Below are positions 29,622 to 37,337 of a DNA stretch of 64,000 nt, piece by piece. The notes under the pieces were generated by a model. The model made no database searches. It was not told the DNA's origin and worked only from the letters and a program-made list of their open reading frames with translations. The DNA is from Deltaproteobacteria bacterium (GTDB lineage Bacteria > Myxococcota > Myxococcia > Myxococcales > 40CM-4-68-19). The stretch lies in contig VBKI01000049.1 in the NCBI GenBank assembly GCA_005879535.1, forward strand, positions 1-64,000, written 5' to 3'. A program made the translations under genes and the position numbers. Position 1 is the first letter of the stretch; each line of letters opens with the position of its first letter.

Positions 29622-30548
29622 ATGTCCTCGTCTGAAATCACGCCGAAGCAGCTCTACGTCCGTCGTCGCGAGTTCCTGAAGCTCGGCGCTGGCAGCGCGC
29701 TCGCGCTGTCGCTTCCCGCCTTCGCAAAGGCCAAGGTGGAGCACGGAGCGAAGCTCGCCGGCGTGACCGCGAATCCGAAGTACGCGTTGGCGGAGGAGAA
29801 GAAGAACGCCTACGAGGACATCACCACCTACAACAATTTCTACGAGCTGGGGACCGACAAGTCGGACCCGAGCGAGAACGCCAGCAAGCTGCAGACGCGC
29901 CCGTGGACGGTGAGCGTCGAAGGCGAAGTGGGCAAGCCGCGGAAGTGGGACATCGAGGAGATCCTCAAGTCCTTCCCCATCGAGGAGCGCGTCTACCGGC
30001 TGCGCTGCGTGGAAGCGTGGTCGATGGTGATCCCCTGGGACGGGTTTCCGCTGGCCGACTTTCTCAAGAAGCACGATCCGACCAGCCGGGCGAAGTACGT
30101 CGCCTTCGAGAGTGCGGTGCAGCCACAGATGCCCGGAGTGAAGGGATATGCGGGAATCCCCTTTCCCTACCTCGAAGGCCTGCGCATCGACGAGGCGACG
30201 CACCCGCTCGCGCTGCTGGTCGTCGGTCTCTATGGCGAGGCGCTTCCCAACCCGGACGGCGCACCCATCCGGCTGATCGTTCCCTGGAAGTACGGTTTCA
30301 AGTCGGCGAAGAGCATCGTCCGGATCAAGCTGCAGGAGACGCAGCCGGCCACGACCTGGAACCAGTATGGGGGCGGTGTCGAGTACGGTTTCTACGCCAA
30401 CGTGAACCCGGACGTGGATCACCCGCGCTGGTCGCAGGCAAAAGAGCGGCGCATCGGCGAGTTCGCGCGGCGCAAGACGCTGATGTTCAACGGCTACCCG
30501 GAAGTGGCCTCGCTGTACGCCGGGATGGACCTGAGGAAGTTCTATTGA
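29622..30548 (+). CDS. msrP: Periplasmic methionine-sulfoxide reductase, molybdopterin subunit
   Basis: The ATG at 29622 gives 308 residues. The twin-arginine signal is [20 protein letters not shown], expected for a Mo-cofactor protein exported folded. The molybdenum ligand Cys is in [20 protein letters not shown]. '[15 protein letters not shown]' and [20 protein letters not shown] are further sulfite-oxidase-fold blocks of the MsrP (YedY) family. It repairs oxidised methionines in periplasmic proteins using electrons from MsrQ, whose gene overlaps it by 4 bases (TTGA). Confidence 0.95.
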
Positions 30549-31144
30549 AGAAGGCGCTGGTCCCCGGAGCGTTCGCCGCGTGCTGCGTGCCCGCGCTCTG
30601 GCTCGCCGTCCAGCTCGTCACCTCGGGCCTGGGGGCCAACCCCATCGAGGCGCTCCTCAACGACCTCGGGTACATCACGTTCGTGCTGCTCGCGCTCACG
30701 CTCGCCTGTACCCCGGCGCAGATCCTGCTCGGTTGGAACTGGCCGATCCGGATCCGCAAGCTCCTCGGCGACTTCTGCTTCTTCTACGCCTGCCTGCATC
30801 TGCTCACCTACACGGTGATCGATCAGGGGTTCGACATTCACGCCATCGCCAAGGACGTCCTCAAGCACAAGTTCATCTTTCTCGGGATGGGGACGTGGCT
30901 CTTGCTGCTGCCGCTCGCCATCACGTCCACGCAGGGCTGGCAAAGGCGCCTCGGTTTCCGCCGCTGGAAGCGCCTCCACCGGCTGGTGTACCTGGCCGGT
31001 GGGCTGGCGAGCTTCCATTTCCTGCTCCGGTTCAAGACGCCGCGGCTCGAGACGGTGGCCTGGATGGGAGTGATCGGCGCGCTTCTGCTGGTGCGCGCGG
31101 TGGAAGCGGCGCGGCGGAGGGCGAGGGTGGTAGAGTCGCCATGA
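30545..31144 (+). CDS. msrQ: Heme-binding membrane subunit MsrQ
   Basis: It begins at TTG 30545 inside the msrP stop, giving 199 residues with about six membrane helices. Typical family segments include [40 protein letters not shown] (heme-ligand His region) and [20 protein letters not shown] (His in a cytoplasmic-edge motif). It passes electrons from the quinone pool or flavin to MsrP. Its stop is one base before the next gene's ATG, so the response regulator is in the same operon. Confidence 0.93.
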
Positions 31145-31145
31145 G

Positions 31146-32534
31146 ATGTCCTCTCGCGCCGCCAGCATCCTGATCGTCGACGACGACGCGAATCTTCGCC
31201 AGAACATCCATTTCATCCTCGAGAAGGGCGGGATGAAGTCGTCGATGGCTTCTTCCGGTGAAGAGGCCCTGCAGCGGATGCGCACCACCGCGTTCGATCT
31301 GGTGCTGCTCGACGTGCAGATGCCGGGCATGGGTGGCCTGGAAGCGCTGCGCATCATGCGGGAGCGGCACCCGGACGTCGGCGTGATCATGTGCTCGGTG
31401 CTCAAGGACATCGCCGTCGCGGTGGAGGCGATGCATACCGGAGCGCTCGATTACGTCACCAAGGACTTCTCCCCGCCCGAACTGATCGCCCGGATACGAA
31501 AGACGCTGGCCCAGCTCCGCGCGGGCCGCGAGCTGGAGCGGCTGCACGACGTCGAGGCCACCCACGTCGGCCGGCCCATGGTGCTGGGGACCTCGCCGCG
31601 GATGCGCGCGGTGGTGCAGGTGGCGGAGAAGATCGCCGCCAAGCCCGTCACCGTGCTGGTGACCGGTGAGAGCGGCACCGGCAAGGAAGTGCTGGCGCGC
31701 TACATCCACGCCCGGAGCGACCGGAGGACCAGTCCGTTCGTCGCCGTGAACCTCCCAGCCATTCCCGCCAACCTGGTGGAGAGCGAGCTGTTCGGACACG
31801 AGCGCGGCTCCTTCACTGGCGCCGACAGGCAGAAGCTGGGCAAGTTCGAGCTGGCGAACGGCGGGACGTTGTTCCTCGACGAGATCGGCGATCTGGCGCT
31901 GGACCTCCAGGCGAAGATCCTCCGCGCGCTGCAAGAGCACGAGATCGAGCGGGTCGGTGGAGAGAAGCCCATCCTGCTCGACCTGCGCGTGATCTGCGCC
32001 ACCAACCGCGAGCTCGCGAAGCTCGTCCAGGAAGGAAGGTTTCGCGAGGATCTCTTCTGGCGTCTGAAGGTGGTCCCCATCGAGCTGCCGCCCCTGCGTG
32101 AACGGCGCGAGGACATCCGCGATCTGGCACAGCACTTCCTCGCCCGGAACGCCGCCGAGCACGGCCGCCTCCCGCAGACGCTCTCCGATGGCGCCCTCCA
32201 GCTCCTGGAGCGGTATCGGTGGCCGGGCAACATCCGCGAGCTGGAGAACATCATGGCCCGGATGACCGTGGTCTGCGACTCGCAGGTGATCGAGGAGTCG
32301 GACCTTCCGTACGACTTCGCGCTCACGGCGGCGGCCACTCCGGAAGCGGAGGCGGGCCAGAGCCTGGAGGCGGCGATCCTCGCCTTCGAGAGGAGCTTCT
32401 TGCGCAAGGCTTTGAAGCGGAACCAGTGGAACCGCAAGCGCACCGCCGAGCACCTGCAGATCGGCTACTCGACGCTCAAGGCGAAGCTCAAGTCTTATGG
32501 CATCGTGGCGGGCGCCGAAGGCGACGACGACTGA
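31146..32534 (+). CDS. NtrC-family response regulator, GSFTGA variant
   Basis: The product has 462 residues. The receiver domain (about 6-120) begins ILIVDDDANLRQNI with the phospho-Asp in LVLLDVQMPGMGG. The AAA+ domain has [31 protein letters not shown] and [12 protein letters not shown]. The sigma-54 contact loop reads GSFTGA instead of GAFTGA. A Fis-type helix-turn-helix is at the end (WNRKRTAEHLQIGYSTLKAK). It is co-transcribed with msrPQ, being 1 base from the msrQ stop. It also converges on a sensor kinase whose 3' end overlaps it by 40 bases, so the kinase is its likely partner. Confidence 0.93.
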   Translation: MSSRAASILIVDDDANLRQNIHFILEKGGMKSSMASSGEEALQRMRTTAFDLVLLDVQMPGMGGLEALRIMRERHPDVGVIMCSVLKDIAVAVEAMHTGALDYVTKDFSPPELIARIRKTLAQLRAGRELERLHDVEATHVGRPMVLGTSPRMRAVVQVAEKIAAKPVTVLVTGESGTGKEVLARYIHARSDRRTSPFVAVNLPAIPANLVESELFGHERGSFTGADRQKLGKFELANGGTLFLDEIGDLALDLQAKILRALQEHEIERVGGEKPILLDLRVICATNRELAKLVQEGRFREDLFWRLKVVPIELPPLRERREDIRDLAQHFLARNAAEHGRLPQTLSDGALQLLERYRWPGNIRELENIMARMTVVCDSQVIEESDLPYDFALTAAATPEAEAGQSLEAAILAFERSFLRKALKRNQWNRKRTAEHLQIGYSTLKAKLKSYGIVAGAEGDDD

Positions 32535-34093
32535 TCGCCGCTGAGCGGCAGGGACAGAGTGAACGTGCTCCCGTTTCCGGGGATGCTCTTCACCGTGATG
32601 CGGCCGCCATGGGCCGCCACGATCCGACGCACGTTCGGAAGGCCCATTCCCACGTGCGCGCCAGTCCGCTTCGTCGACGAGAAGGAGTCGAAGAGGGTGG
32701 CAATCCGCTCGGGAGCGATTCCTCCTCCCTGATCCTCCACCGTAAACAGCGCGTCGTGCTCGGCGCGCCCCACGCGTAGCCGCACCGCCGAGCCGGGTTC
32801 TGAGGCCTCGATCGCGTTGCGCATCAGGTTCAGGGCTGCCCGTTCCAACAGGTAGCGGTCCCCGCGCACCCACAGATCGGAAGGCGCGCGCTGCACGTCG
32901 ATCCCGATGTTTGCCTCTTTTGCGTATCCCTGCCCTCCGGCGCGGACGCTCTCGGCGAAGGCGTTCAGCTCGATGGGAAGGAATTCCGCCGGCTTCGCTT
33001 CGCGCGTCAGATCCGAGAAGTCGGAGACGAAACGGCGAAGCGTTCCGACTTCCGCGCCAATCGATTCGCGGATGCGGGGCAGGTAGTCGGCGTCGTTCAT
33101 GGCGGCGAGCTGCTCGATCTGCTGCAGGACGATGAGGCGATGCCCGAGATCATGAGTGACGCCGACGGCGATCCGGCCCGCGGTCTTGAACCGCTCTTCC
33201 AACTCGAGCGCCGTCAGCATCCGCCGGGCGAGCATGTACCCGACCGCGATGGAGATGAGCAACGTGAGGGCGGCTCCGAAGGCGAGGAAGTGCAGCGCCG
33301 TGCGAGCTCCTCGCAGCGCCTCGTCCGCGGGCTGCTCGACGGCGATGCTCCAGCCGAGATCGGGGAGTGAAGCCCATCCCGCGATCAAGTCGCGGCCTTC
33401 ACCGTTGCGTAGCCGCGCGGGGGCGGGCGTCCCCTTCACCAGGGCGGAAGCAAACGGAGATTCCGCCACGGGCTCGCCGCTGAGGACCGCGGCCCGCATC
33501 GAACCGGAGCCTGCCGCGACGAGGTGGCCGCTGCGATCGAACGCGAGCGCATATCCCTGCTCGCCGACGCGGATGCGCTGGACCTGACGCTGCAACTCGA
33601 GCAGATCCAGCGTGGCGCAGACGGCGCGGCCGGGCTTGCCGGATGGAACGCAGACATCCATCGCCGGCGATAGCTCCGCGATGTACGTCTCGGAGGCGAC
33701 TTCGGTGCCCCGCAGCGCCGCGGCGATCCGGTCGCGATCGAGCATCCGTGGCACCTCGCGCTGCGGCGTATCCGCGGAGAGGAGACGTAGCTTGCCCAGG
33801 CTCGGCGCATCGAGGGCTATGTCGGCGAGACGCCGTACGGCGTCTGACTCGTCCGCGACGGCAGTGCCGATCGCTCGCAGCATTTCGCGCTGTTGCGCGA
33901 TGTACGTGGCGATGCGTGCCGCGGCCTGAGCGGCGATTGCCTCGAGGGCCTCCTGCGACGCGCGCTCGCCGCGGTCACCGAGGATCCGCAGGCCAAAGAT
34001 GGCCAGAAGGAGGACCGGGATGACGCCGCTCGCGGCGATCAGCGCAGTGAGCAGCAAGGCGATGCGGCGCCGCGTCACCGCACGATCTCCCAT
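32495..34093 (-). CDS. Membrane sensor histidine kinase with a periplasmic Cache-like domain
   Basis: The ATG at 34093 gives 532 residues and overlaps the upstream lipoprotein gene by 19 bases. A membrane helix (about 10-35, LLLTALIAASGVIPVLLLAI) precedes a roughly 240-residue periplasmic domain of Cache type, with GWASLPDLGWSIAVEQPADE near its end. A second helix (FGAALTLLISIAVGYMLA) follows. The kinase core has the H-box VGVTHDLGHRLIVLQQIEQL, N-box LNLMRNAIEA, and G-boxes VEDQGGGI and HVGMGLPNVRRIVAAHGGRI. There is no PAS or receiver domain. Its position after a peptide-binding lipoprotein suggests that lipoprotein or its ligand is the input. The output is probably the convergent NtrC-type regulator. 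Confidence 0.92.
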   Translation of the reverse strand: MGDRAVTRRRIALLLTALIAASGVIPVLLLAIFGLRILGDRGERASQEALEAIAAQAAARIATYIAQQREMLRAIGTAVADESDAVRRLADIALDAPSLGKLRLLSADTPQREVPRMLDRDRIAAALRGTEVASETYIAELSPAMDVCVPSGKPGRAVCATLDLLELQRQVQRIRVGEQGYALAFDRSGHLVAAGSGSMRAAVLSGEPVAESPFASALVKGTPAPARLRNGEGRDLIAGWASLPDLGWSIAVEQPADEALRGARTALHFLAFGAALTLLISIAVGYMLARRMLTALELEERFKTAGRIAVGVTHDLGHRLIVLQQIEQLAAMNDADYLPRIRESIGAEVGTLRRFVSDFSDLTREAKPAEFLPIELNAFAESVRAGGQGYAKEANIGIDVQRAPSDLWVRGDRYLLERAALNLMRNAIEASEPGSAVRLRVGRAEHDALFTVEDQGGGIAPERIATLFDSFSSTKRTGAHVGMGLPNVRRIVAAHGGRITVKSIPGNGSTFTLSLPLSGDQSSSPSAPATMP

Positions 34094-35346
34094 TCGGGCA
34101 GTGTTTCGAGTGCCTCGTACGGCCCGAGCCTCGGATTCACGATCCTGACGTCGACGACCGCGATCTGTTCGCGGGTGCATACGAAAGCACCGGGGGGATC
34201 CTCGCGAAGAGCGGCATGAGCCGCCCTCCAGTCACCGGCATCGACGGCCCGATCGACCGCGGGATTCGAGTATCCGATGAGGTTGTACGGTGCTCCGGTC
34301 CGCCATACGAGAGCGAGCGCGCTCGGTGGCCATCGGAGCGGACGCGCCGTCACCAGATCGAAATCGCGATTCCTCACCCGCGATACCGCCTCTTCGGGCA
34401 CCAGCTGGGAAACTTCGCCGGCCCGGTCCGCCAGAACACGTCGCGATGCCAGCGCAAGCCGCTCGAACGGGCCCCAGCTCACGACGCGCAAAGGCCGTCC
34501 TGCAGGGGGGCCCGGCTCATCGCCGCCGCTCCCCTCGGCGCACTCCCCGCCGTCGTACGCCAGGTCTCGCACGCGTTGCGAACCAAGGATGCGTTCGAGC
34601 TGTAATCGTTCGGATCGCGGCAATTCGGGGTTGAAGAGAATGGAGTCCGTACTTCGTCCCGTGCCGCGGATGATCTGCAGCGATGGCACGCCTCTGAAGA
34701 ACTCGAGCCAGCGCGACTCCACATCGACGATCAGATTCGTGTCTCCTTTGAGCGTGTGCGCGAAAGCATCGCGAGGAGTGTCGTAGGCAATGATGCGCAC
34801 GTCATTGATCCGTCCAGCCGCCGGGATCCGCCGCGCCAACCGGAGCTCCGTCGGCGTCTGAGACGCAACCGCGAAGGGTCCAGTTCCGAGGAACTTGTCC
34901 TGCACGCGGCGGAAGATGAGCGCATTCAGGAGCAACGCGTCTGCTGGCAGGCCTTCCTGGCGCGACTCGATCAGCAGGGCGCCATCCGACTTGATTGCCC
35001 GCAAGCCGGCGGGCTCCAGTGATTGGATGACATCCACATCCGTCACCGGCGTCCCGTCGCTGAAGGTGGCGTCGCGTCGGACCTCGACGCGCAGCTCCTT
35101 GTTCGACAAGCGATCGACGCTGGCGGCGAGGCTTGGCCTCAGCTCCCCTGCGGCGTCGATCGTGACGAGCCTCTCATATACCCATGGCTGGGCGATGGAA
35201 GCCAAGGCGGTTTCGTTGCCCGTGGGGGCCAGTTCGCCCAACGGCCCCCACATGGCAAGCTTGACGACGAACGCCTCGCGTGATGGCGGCGATGTGCAGC
35301 CCAGGATGATACTGAACAGCAATAGCCGATACACGCTGCCTGCCAC
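34075..35346 (-). CDS. DppA/OppA-like solute-binding lipoprotein
   Basis: GTG at 35346 with a purine-rich site (GCGAAAG) just upstream, giving 423 residues; a GTG at 35334 is an alternative. The lipobox is FSIILGC. Family 5 solute-binding features are ALASIAQPWVYERLVTIDAA then GELRPSLAASVDRLSNKELR, VRRDATFSDGTPVTDVDV and DKFLGTGPFAV. It is about 100 residues shorter than classical DppA. No permease or ATPase genes are nearby, so it is more likely a receptor than part of an importer. It lies between the 27-aa peptide gene and the kinase gene, which suggests peptide recognition linked to signalling (inference). Confidence 0.85.
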   Translation of the reverse strand: MAGSVYRLLLFSIILGCTSPPSREAFVVKLAMWGPLGELAPTGNETALASIAQPWVYERLVTIDAAGELRPSLAASVDRLSNKELRVEVRRDATFSDGTPVTDVDVIQSLEPAGLRAIKSDGALLIESRQEGLPADALLLNALIFRRVQDKFLGTGPFAVASQTPTELRLARRIPAAGRINDVRIIAYDTPRDAFAHTLKGDTNLIVDVESRWLEFFRGVPSLQIIRGTGRSTDSILFNPELPRSERLQLERILGSQRVRDLAYDGGECAEGSGGDEPGPPAGRPLRVVSWGPFERLALASRRVLADRAGEVSQLVPEEAVSRVRNRDFDLVTARPLRWPPSALALVWRTGAPYNLIGYSNPAVDRAVDAGDWRAAHAALREDPPGAFVCTREQIAVVDVRIVNPRLGPYEALETLPEWEIVR

Positions 35347-35395: not shown

Positions 35396-35479
35396 TCATG
35401 CGACCGGAGGACTTATCACGATCATTCCGCAGACGGTCGGAACGCGCACGGACTTCCTCTTCGACCGGTTGATCTTCAT
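35396..35479 (-). CDS. 27-residue peptide, candidate RiPP precursor
   Basis: This short gene starts at ATG 35479 with GGAG 7 bases upstream, 18 bases after the stop of the radical SAM gene, and ends at TGA 35396. The peptide begins with a strongly basic leader-like part (MKINRSKRKS) and ends with a hydrophobic core-like part (VCGMIVISPPVA) holding a single Cys and a Pro-Pro. Size, position and two-part character match precursors of ribosomally made peptides modified by radical SAM/SPASM enzymes. I do not recognise the family. The modification and mature form are unknown. The chance that it is not translated is real because it is so short. Confidence 0.65.
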   Translation of the reverse strand: MKINRSKRKSVRVPTVCGMIVISPPVA

Positions 35480-35497: not shown

Positions 35498-36844
35498 TCA
35501 GGCTGTTTCCGTCCACTCCGGTTGCGGGAACTCCGTGAGGTAGCGGTGGACGACGCTCTCGCGGAAACTCGACTCGAACATGTCCTTCTTGCAGGCGACT
35601 TCGTCGCGGCGGCCAGTCTTCAGGAACTTCCCGCCCAGGCACCCGCCGACGCACACCGGGAGATACGGGCAATCGCCGCATTTTTCCCAAGGCCTCAGCT
35701 CGACGAGCGGCGCCACCTTCTCGGGTGCCGAGGACGCAACGTGCGCGACCTCGAGTCCCGGGAGCCCGGCGACCACCGGGCATTTGTACACGCGGCCTTC
35801 GGGATCGATGGTGTAGTTGTTCTTCCAGTGCAGCTCGCAGGGCCCGAGGAGGCCTTCGAGCGTCCTGCCCTGATGAGCAGTCGGCGTCATCTTCCGGCGC
35901 TCGATCGACGCGTTGAGCTGCACCAGCGTCTGCGTCTCCTGCTTTTCGCTGCAGCCGGTGCAAGTGCCTTTACTGCGTTGCTGCGTGTCGACCATCGGCC
36001 GGAACATCACTCCGGCAAGGAGCGGCGCGACGCCGCTCTTCTCGAACCGATCGAGCAGCGCTTCGAACGAGGCCGCCTGGTCGGGGAAGAAGTGCCCCCC
36101 GACGAACACCTTGCACCCGGCCTGGGCGAGCGCAACGACGTTGTCGAAGATCACGTCGAAGGTGCCGCGGCCGTCGCGATAGACGCGCATCCGGTCGTGC
36201 GTTTCCTTGTCGCCGTCGAGAGTGACCTTGAAGGCGCCGGGGCCGAAGGAATGCATCTTCCGGGCGAACTCCACGTCGAGCTGGATGCCGTTCGTGGTCA
36301 TGTCCCAGCGGAACGTGCCGCCTCGGGCCTTCATCGAAGCGGACAGCACCTGCGCGGTGCGCAGGCAGTAGTCCTTGCGCGTGGTGGGCTCGCCGCCGAA
36401 GTAATGGACCTGCAGCGTGCGCAGTCCGCGCTCGTCGACCTGGCGCAGGAGCCACTCCAGCGTTGCATCCTCGGTCGGCGCCGACATCTTGGTGAACGAC
36501 GGGTGCTCCTTCTGGAAGCAATAGTTGCAGGCGAGGTTGCACTGCAGCGTTGGCATCAAGGTCACGTACATCGTGCCGGGGACGCCTTCGCTCGCCTTGT
36601 CCAGGTATGCGCGGACCCTGACATCGTCCTCGAGGCGATTGCTTACGAGAAATCCGTCTTCGACCAGCGCGTCCCGCGCTTCGCGCTCGTCCGCCGTCGC
36701 CGGCTGATTCCCCGCGGACCACCGAGCGATGGCGCGGAGCGTCGCTTCGTCGATGCCGGCGTAGCGATCCTCGATCACGCTGTAGAGGACGTGCTCGCCC
36801 GGCCGAACGTTCTCGTAGGCGACCACGAATCGGGAGAGCTGCAT
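35498..36844 (-). CDS. Radical SAM/SPASM peptide maturase
   Basis: The ATG at 36844 gives 448 residues. The frame stays open to 37141, but that extension is Arg-rich and unlike a protein. N-terminal residues 1-90 (MQLSRFVVAYENVRPGEHVL) look like a peptide-recognition region. The radical SAM cluster is Cys102, Cys106 and Cys109 (CNLACNYCF). 'VHYFGGEPTTRKD' and MTTNGIQL are typical of maturases. The C-terminal SPASM domain has about ten Cys, including CTGCSEKQ, GPCELHW, YKCPVVAG and CGDCPYLPVCVGGCLGGKF. Relatives install thioether, C-C or other links in peptides. The 27-aa peptide gene 18 bases downstream is the obvious substrate (inference). Confidence 0.9.
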   Translation of the reverse strand: MQLSRFVVAYENVRPGEHVLYSVIEDRYAGIDEATLRAIARWSAGNQPATADEREARDALVEDGFLVSNRLEDDVRVRAYLDKASEGVPGTMYVTLMPTLQCNLACNYCFQKEHPSFTKMSAPTEDATLEWLLRQVDERGLRTLQVHYFGGEPTTRKDYCLRTAQVLSASMKARGGTFRWDMTTNGIQLDVEFARKMHSFGPGAFKVTLDGDKETHDRMRVYRDGRGTFDVIFDNVVALAQAGCKVFVGGHFFPDQAASFEALLDRFEKSGVAPLLAGVMFRPMVDTQQRSKGTCTGCSEKQETQTLVQLNASIERRKMTPTAHQGRTLEGLLGPCELHWKNNYTIDPEGRVYKCPVVAGLPGLEVAHVASSAPEKVAPLVELRPWEKCGDCPYLPVCVGGCLGGKFLKTGRRDEVACKKDMFESSFRESVVHRYLTEFPQPEWTETA

Positions 36845-36857
36845 TGCGCGACCCCTA

Positions 36858-36873
36858 CGCAACGGTGGTGCCA
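36858..36873 (-). promoter_or_regulatory. Probable sigma-54 (-24/-12) promoter of the maturase operon
   Basis: On the minus strand TGGCAC (36873-36868) is followed by 5 bases and TTGCG (36862-36858). The invariant GG and GC are exactly 10 bases apart. Transcription would start near 36847, only about 3 bases before the maturase ATG, so the message would be almost leaderless. A sigma-54 activator gene lies at the other end of the locus. Confidence 0.6.
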
Positions 36874-37115
36874 GCTCTCTCAGCGTCTCTCCCCCAGAGG
36901 AGACGAGCCAGTTTCCGGGCCGGCGGCCAGCGTTCCGGCCGCGCTTCGGGGCTCGGAACCGGGCCTCGACCTGCGCGGTTTCGCGGCGCGGGATCGCGCG
37001 GCAACGCCGAAAGAACTCAATCGGTGCGCGCTTCGCCGCGGGGCCAGAGTGCTGGCTGGAGCGGCCAGTTCCCCGGCCCTGAAGGTGGCGCGCGAATTGC
37101 TCGCGACGCGATTTC

Positions 37116-37337
37116 GTGACTCCGCAAAAGCAAAAGATCATCGCGGTGCGCCACCTCCGTGCAGGAGGGCGCTTGATTCCCGTTCACTTCTCCCGGAATG
37201 CCGGAGGCTCCGTCGCGGGACGAGCCGTGCTCGGCGCCCAGGATACCCCCATTCTCGACGGGCCCGATCCCGAAGCGGTGCTCGCCGTCCTGCGCGACGT
37301 GATCGACGGCCTCTTGATGGCGCGCCGATCCGCGTAG
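37116..37337 (+). CDS. Small hypothetical protein
   Basis: GTG start, 73 residues, divergent from the maturase operon. It contains GGRLIPVHFSRNAGGSVAGR and DGPDPEAVLAVLRDVIDGLL, a short beta part followed by an amphipathic helix, with GC-rich third positions like neighbouring genes. I do not recognise a family. It ends 15 bases before the convergent membrane protein gene. No clear ribosome binding site is visible. Confidence 0.5.
   Translation: MTPQKQKIIAVRHLRAGGRLIPVHFSRNAGGSVAGRAVLGAQDTPILDGPDPEAVLAVLRDVIDGLLMARRSA

Follow-up and report, generated by a model that had tools for sequence, protein, structure and literature searches.

Does the short reading frame that follows the stop codon of a radical SAM maturase gene at this locus encode a real peptide, and if so, is the peptide made into a product by that maturase, and would the product be a signal or some other output? 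We approached the question in the window (the whole stretch of 64,000 nucleotides analysed here) by comparison with other genomes of the phylum.

The peptide reading frame and its conservation

The two genes with which the question begins are:

35396-35479, minus strand: gene of a 27-residue candidate precursor peptide (leader, residues 1-16; invariant Cys17; variable tail, residues 18-27)
35498-36844, minus strand: radical SAM/SPASM peptide maturase of 448 residues (ATG at 36844; PF04055, 59.6 bits)

The translation of 35396-35479 on the minus strand is MKINRSKRKSVRVPTVCGMIVISPPVA, and its ATG is located 18 nt 3' of the maturase stop codon (35498-35500), with the sequence GGAG 6 nt 5' of the ATG. 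A sequence-only reading of the locus had described six Lys/Arg in residues 1-12, one Cys, Pro-Pro near the end and a good ribosome binding site 18 bases past the maturase stop; the translation (C-terminus SPPVA) and the spacing agree with this description.

Close relatives of the maturase (E ≤ 1e-40 with alignment A1) were found in 13 of the 195 genomes of the phylum that were searched, including the window's own. DNA beyond the maturase stop codon is available in 12 of them (the contig of G007 ends inside the maturase gene), and all 12 copies encode a peptide of 22-27 residues at this place. Genome G005, in which only the edge of the neighbouring gene for a 73-residue protein is present, is outside this count, and the G001 peptide was read from a second contig, which starts inside the end of the maturase gene. 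When the peptides were aligned without gaps on the Cys (one copy begins with an additional residue), S6, R8, R12 and C17 were invariant in 12/12 peptides, S10 was present in 11/12, and every peptide had exactly one Cys. The leader consensus across the copies is MKIKRSxRKSTRxxxPC, with Pro directly before the Cys in seven of the 12. The tail behind the Cys (5-10 residues) differs strongly between lineages, no residue in it being conserved across the 12 peptides, and the mean identity is 0.12 in the tail versus 0.60 up to and including the Cys. The sequence-only reading had named the conservation of frame, leader and core beside maturase homologues as the check on its proposal: the frame and the basic leader are conserved in 12/12 copies, whereas the core is kept only in its Cys. 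Its two-part basic/hydrophobic design likewise stands for the basic half, but the hydrophobic half is different from lineage to lineage.

Between the window and its nearest relative (locus L043 in genome G006), peptide residues 1-14 are identical, 13 of the 19 nucleotide differences are at codon position 3, and the NG86 estimates over the 27 codons are dN 0.12 and dS 1.25. In the close pair L044/L047 (genomes G003/G002), 7/10 differences in the peptide gene are at codon position 3; the leader differs at three residues in this pair and the tail is identical. A profile of the peptide gave E ≤ 6.1e-10 at these 12 sites and 2.3e-4 at the next best site in the 195 genomes. Weak matches (E ≤ 1) occurred in 188/195 genomes, as expected of a profile of 24 positions, and matches of comparable score were confined to the sites of the gene module described below, among the best candidates (43 or fewer) scored per genome. 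The conservation of the frame, the bias toward codon position 3 and the specificity of the profile therefore indicate that the 27-residue frame is, as judged from these sequence comparisons, a real conserved gene under selection, which accompanies the maturase gene.

Two explanations without a modified peptide can be weighed at this point. A chance open reading frame, for which the length of only 27 codons would speak, is ruled out by the 12/12 conserved copies together with the gap in profile scores, and we give it practically no weight. The peptide might also be an unmodified small protein or a translational leader that regulates the downstream genes for a binding lipoprotein and a kinase, given that it is very short and basic and that its gene is between the maturase and lipoprotein genes and near both. 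This explanation is very improbable, because the leader and the Cys are kept at the residue level with synonymous drift and because the peptide co-occurs with the maturase.

The maturase and the gene module

The arrangement by which a RiPP locus is recognised, a short precursor gene conserved beside a maturase gene, was found in 12/12 copies, and it supports the earlier proposal, in which a precursor peptide combines a basic leader with a one-Cys core. We infer with high confidence that the peptide is the precursor of the adjacent maturase; the enzyme encoded immediately 5' of the 27-residue peptide very probably modifies it chemically.

The radical SAM motif CxxxCxxC is present in 12/12 maturase copies, and the seven SPASM-type cysteines are present in 11/12 (in the G002 maturase, the last two of them lie past a frame break and were left unprojected). 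The best NCBIfam model of the window maturase is TIGR04280 ('geopeptide'; 227.7 bits, 2.6e-67, residues 1-432), whose maturase presumably acts on a peptide, as its family name implies. However, the score of the window maturase is below the TIGR04280 cut-off of 400 bits, which was passed in 0/145 genomes of the order. The window module may be a branch of the geopeptide system. The TIGR04280-like loci L033 and L034 (family f4) were set aside as another system; there, the maturase relatives are followed on the 3' side by a different and longer small open frame (read by eye), which probably belongs to a different RiPP system. Viral contigs yielded no relative, and plasmids contained distant radical SAM proteins only (all 134 records below 60% identity).

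The next-best NCBIfam matches of the maturase include TIGR04463, PapB ranthipeptide, CefB, Clo7bot, SCIFF and CcpM, among which are maturases of Cys peptides (PapB family, 1.1e-32; SCIFF maturase, 8.7e-21), and the best sequence relative in the PDB is 5wgg, which we take to be the SCIFF maturase CteB. Because of this proximity to Cys-peptide families and to 5wgg, we favour a modification of the Cys: the basic leader would be the part recognised by the maturase, and Cys17 would be the modified residue, probably in a thioether or another Cys-centred link. The window maturase resembles the PapB/SCIFF ranthipeptide maturases in having radical SAM and SPASM parts and a Cys-containing putative substrate. 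Known PapB/SCIFF ranthipeptide substrates, however, have several Cys and conserved acceptor residues, whereas the window-type precursors have 22-27 residues, one Cys (12/12) and no conserved acceptor; the ranthipeptide pattern was seen in none of the 12 peptides. With HMMER filters that discard most weak matches, nine of the 12 peptides had no NCBIfam match at E ≤ 10 and the window peptide had no Pfam match at E ≤ 1, and within this range the initial impression that the peptide fits no precursor family that can be named still holds.

The module in which both genes are located has the order divergent 73-residue protein gene, maturase, peptide, SBP-like lipoprotein and histidine kinase, with the gene of an NtrC-type regulator convergent to the latter:

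37116-37337, plus strand: divergent 73-residue protein without recognised family (predicted beta4-alpha, pLDDT 84.1)
34075-35346, minus strand: SBP-like lipoprotein with a predicted family-5 solute-binding fold (GTG start; lipobox-like IILGC)
32495-34093, minus strand: histidine kinase with Cache-like sensor region and HATPase (HATPase_c, 86.7 bits; dCache_1, 43.4 bits with a cut-off of 45)
31146-32534, plus strand: NtrC-type response regulator with receiver, sigma-54 AAA+ and Fis HTH domains, convergent to the kinase

Over the length that their contigs cover, family f1 and three genomes of family f6 (the latter, we guess, an Anaeromyxobacter-like genus) retain this order; the named relatives are 'Deltaproteobacteria' MAGs (e.g. 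DP_13), probably from soil. Where the contigs reach, the f1 flanks contain AsmA-like, MsrP-like (Oxidored_molyb), MsrQ-like (Ferric_reduct) and VTT-domain genes. None of these flanking genes had a match in the three f6 stretches (16-20 kb each), so the module by itself forms the core. We recognised neither an exporter nor a protease among the genes of the module. In the window, the MsrP/MsrQ-like genes (29625-31144) are located directly 5' of the regulator gene, which is separated from the MsrQ-like gene by 1 nt, and five f1 relatives with contigs that extend this far have the same order. The 73-residue protein was found in 14/195 genomes, namely the 13 maturase genomes and G005 (at a contig edge). 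Its model had no confident fold match (Foldseek best E 0.4; VIA best Z 6.2), which does not make the fold new.

Mycofactocin and PQQ precursors are also very short and are located beside SPASM maturases, and the mycofactocin precursor has a conserved core. As a tiny precursor adjoins a SPASM maturase here as well, the peptide might be the precursor of a PQQ- or mycofactocin-like redox cofactor or internal prosthetic peptide. We consider this improbable: the tail varies strongly, unlike a fixed cofactor core, and the module part common to f1 and f6 contains no recognised dehydrogenase partner. A further difference from mycofactocin and PQQ is the sensing module that accompanies the window-type peptide. 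According to the mycofactocin paper, mycofactocin goes with nicotinoprotein dehydrogenases, and further short-peptide systems built for metabolic roles are foreseen (PMC3023750), the latter being in favour of a cofactor precursor.

Promoter, binding lipoprotein and two-component system

The region between the divergent 73-residue protein gene and the maturase gene contains:

36858-36873, minus strand: putative sigma-54 (-24/-12) promoter element TGGCACCACCGTTGCG, preceding the maturase and peptide genes
36907-36920 and 36926-36939, no strand: proximal pair of GCC(A)G-N4-CTGGC-like dyads, proposed regulator sites
37043-37056 and 37064-37077, no strand: distal dyad pair, which may also serve the divergent 73-residue protein gene

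A strict sigma-54 element (TGGCA[CT]-N5-TTGC) is located 28-31 nt 5' of the maturase start in 13/13 copies (13 observed; mean of 0.008 after the upstream regions were shuffled). The element matches the sigma-54 AAA+ domain of the regulator in the same module and is its putative target. Paired dyads with similar spacing were found in five copies (the window, L043, L044, L046 and L047), the distal dyads near -233 to -247 and near -212 to -226, the proximal ones near -94 to -97 and near -75 to -78; the two dyads of a pair are 19-21 bp apart. Note that we derived the dyad consensus from these same sequences; in the other copies, the dyads were degenerate or below the detection threshold. As a separate observation, transcription usually starts 11-12 nt past the GC of a sigma-54 element, and because the element is so near the maturase ATG, the 5' leader of the maturase mRNA would be only about 2-5 nt long in 13/13 copies (36844-36873 in the window), making the mRNA nearly leaderless.

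The SBP-like lipoprotein scores 29.4 bits with SBP_bac_5, just under the cut-off of 32.4. Its AlphaFold model (pLDDT 87.3) has 5u4o as the best VIA match (Z 26.9, rmsd 3.6, 394 residues aligned), and the lipoprotein is, by this predicted structure, a protein with the family-5 (peptide/nickel) binding-protein fold. A lipobox-like Cys is present in 9/9 aligned copies; the start codons of the copies are our own choice, and alignment A3 leaves out G010 (frame-broken SBP), G002 (SBP over two contigs) and G001, all of which are included in the SBP identity table. Foldseek matches of the model include AppA with a nonapeptide (1xoc), NikA, a methanobactin-binding protein and PrgZ (4faj, rank 49), and nickel, methanobactin and heme binders are among the family-5 proteins in the match lists. 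The predicted fold would be shared with the pheromone-binding protein PrgZ. PrgZ, however, serves pheromone import by the Opp permease, whereas no permease gene was recognised beside the window SBP gene, the end of which overlaps the start of the kinase gene by 19 nt.

The motif HDLGHR was found in 9/9 kinase copies whose sequence reaches it. The regulator has matches to PF00158 (232 bits), PF00072 (105 bits) and PF02954 (37.9 bits), and G[AS]FTGA is present in 9/9 regulator copies with the gene. A related SBP-kinase pair without maturase or peptide is present in four genomes (G022, G039, G037 and G031), which suggests that the SBP and the kinase form one sensing unit and that a unit of this kind can respond to a different ligand. 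At loci L090, L091, L092 and L093, SBP-kinase pairs without maturase or peptide are located 3' of a gene that encodes a small basic protein of another kind.

Signal or product made on demand

We infer a course of events that runs from the substrate relation and the Cys chemistry through cleavage and export to sensing and autoinduction. The modified product would be trimmed, then exported, and, once in the periplasm, would be captured by the family-5 binding lipoprotein; from the lipoprotein, the signal would pass through the Cache-like histidine kinase and on to the NtrC-type regulator, which would fire the sigma-54 promoter before the maturase and peptide genes. The outcome would be a self-inducing, lineage-specific peptide signal. 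Every copy with a sufficiently long contig has the binding lipoprotein, the kinase and the sigma-54 regulator, and this, together with the sigma-54 element, points to a product that is sensed and turns on its own synthesis. As in a quorum-sensing system, the putative promoter of the candidate signal gene fits the sigma factor of the regulator (sigma-54 element, 13/13; sigma-54 AAA+ regulator). The genes of the candidate signal, the candidate receptor, the kinase and the regulator are located together. A signalling role is plausible, and the full loop, in which the product sensed by lipoprotein, kinase and regulator would induce its own operon, is in our estimation a serious possibility that falls somewhat short of an even chance. 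The SBP-kinase pairs without peptide in four genomes are a point against the loop, since the pair can sense something else, and so are the missing conservation of the tail and the lack of a recognised exporter or protease gene in the module. We advance tentatively, and hold to be rather less than probable, a reading in which the RiPP itself would be the signal: a peptide pheromone of Gram-negative bacteria, modified by a radical SAM enzyme and acting in a closed loop. It would combine a minimal precursor, a constant leader, a variable tail, an OppA-like lipoprotein receptor and a self-inducing sigma-54 two-component system, a combination we propose with the same reserve.

The peptide-free pairs also speak for an alternative in which the RiPP is made on demand: the lipoprotein, kinase and regulator would sense an outside cue (a nutrient peptide, a metal chelate or a stress signal), and the peptide would be the output (an antimicrobial, a metallophore or another effector). 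The nickel, methanobactin and heme binders in the SBP match lists and the MsrP/Q-like genes adjoining the regulator gene in the window and the five f1 relatives are in line with it. On the other hand, the f6 stretches contained no MsrP/Q match, none of the module genes was recognised as serving immunity, uptake or export (the 73-residue protein could have such a role), and each peptide has only a single Cys. We regard this alternative as a real possibility, slightly less likely than the full loop.

Comparisons of peptide and lipoprotein divergence gave arguments both for and against the loop. Tail similarity was correlated with SBP identity, given maturase identity under a linear control, with a partial r of 0.57 (reached by 2/2000 permutations) in 12 taxa, which are few and related; the corresponding value for the leader was -0.00. 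With a quadratic control, the tail-SBP value was 0.23 (55/1000 permutations), and in some settings the tail also tracked the maturase or the kinase. A robust tail-SBP correlation was rejected because it falls under nonlinear control. The dN of the SBP was the highest in 6/6 peptide-bearing pairs compared (0.27 versus 0.10 for the kinase in window/L043). However, the SBP/kinase dN ratio was 2.0-2.8 with the peptide (where both were measured) and also raised, at 1.5-2.4, in genomes without peptide and maturase, and fast SBP evolution was not accepted as proof of receptor-ligand co-evolution.

Divergence at fourfold sites was highest in the SBP in 6/8 pairs; in window/L043 that of MsrQ was marginally higher (0.563 versus 0.558), and in L044/L046 that of the peptide (4 sites) exceeded it. 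The high fourfold divergence of the SBP accompanies a lower GC3, which was 0.72-0.83 in nine f1 rows and the lowest of the genes measured in 8/9 (the figures leave out the L048 peptide). In the window, GC3 was 0.75 in the SBP versus 0.82 in the kinase, 0.87 in the maturase and 0.90 in the regulator; the dip was similar in the f1 relatives, smaller in f6 and almost absent from the peptide-free SBP-kinase pairs. The SBP identities (identities, not trees) show the same relatedness pattern as those of the maturase, and the exchange of a specificity cassette is therefore unsupported and was discarded.

To our knowledge, modified peptide signals of the kind proposed here are little known in Gram-negative bacteria. 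Among the matches listed in our literature search, no title or abstract opening described such a signal or such a module, and in the literature covered (most subscription papers are outside it) no paper was found on geopeptide or TIGR04280 or on radical SAM RiPP precursor peptides of Anaeromyxobacter. A further comparison is with the streptococcal RaS-RiPPs, radical-SAM peptides which are tied to peptide signalling; SHP, a pheromone distinct from the RiPP, controls their operon with the regulator Rgg (PMC13361665). Such a tie is proposed for the window module, and the module differs from the streptococcal system in its binding lipoprotein, two-component system and sigma-54 element; no second (pheromone) peptide was recognised in it.

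The module adds a precursor family that no curated model was found to cover, with a fixed set of partner genes and a precursor so short that gene finders likely skip it. As the whole system consists of six genes and the substrate has 27 residues, it is easily testable in E. coli. If the self-inducing loop is true, radical-SAM RiPP chemistry and peptide signalling would be directly connected in Gram-negative bacteria.
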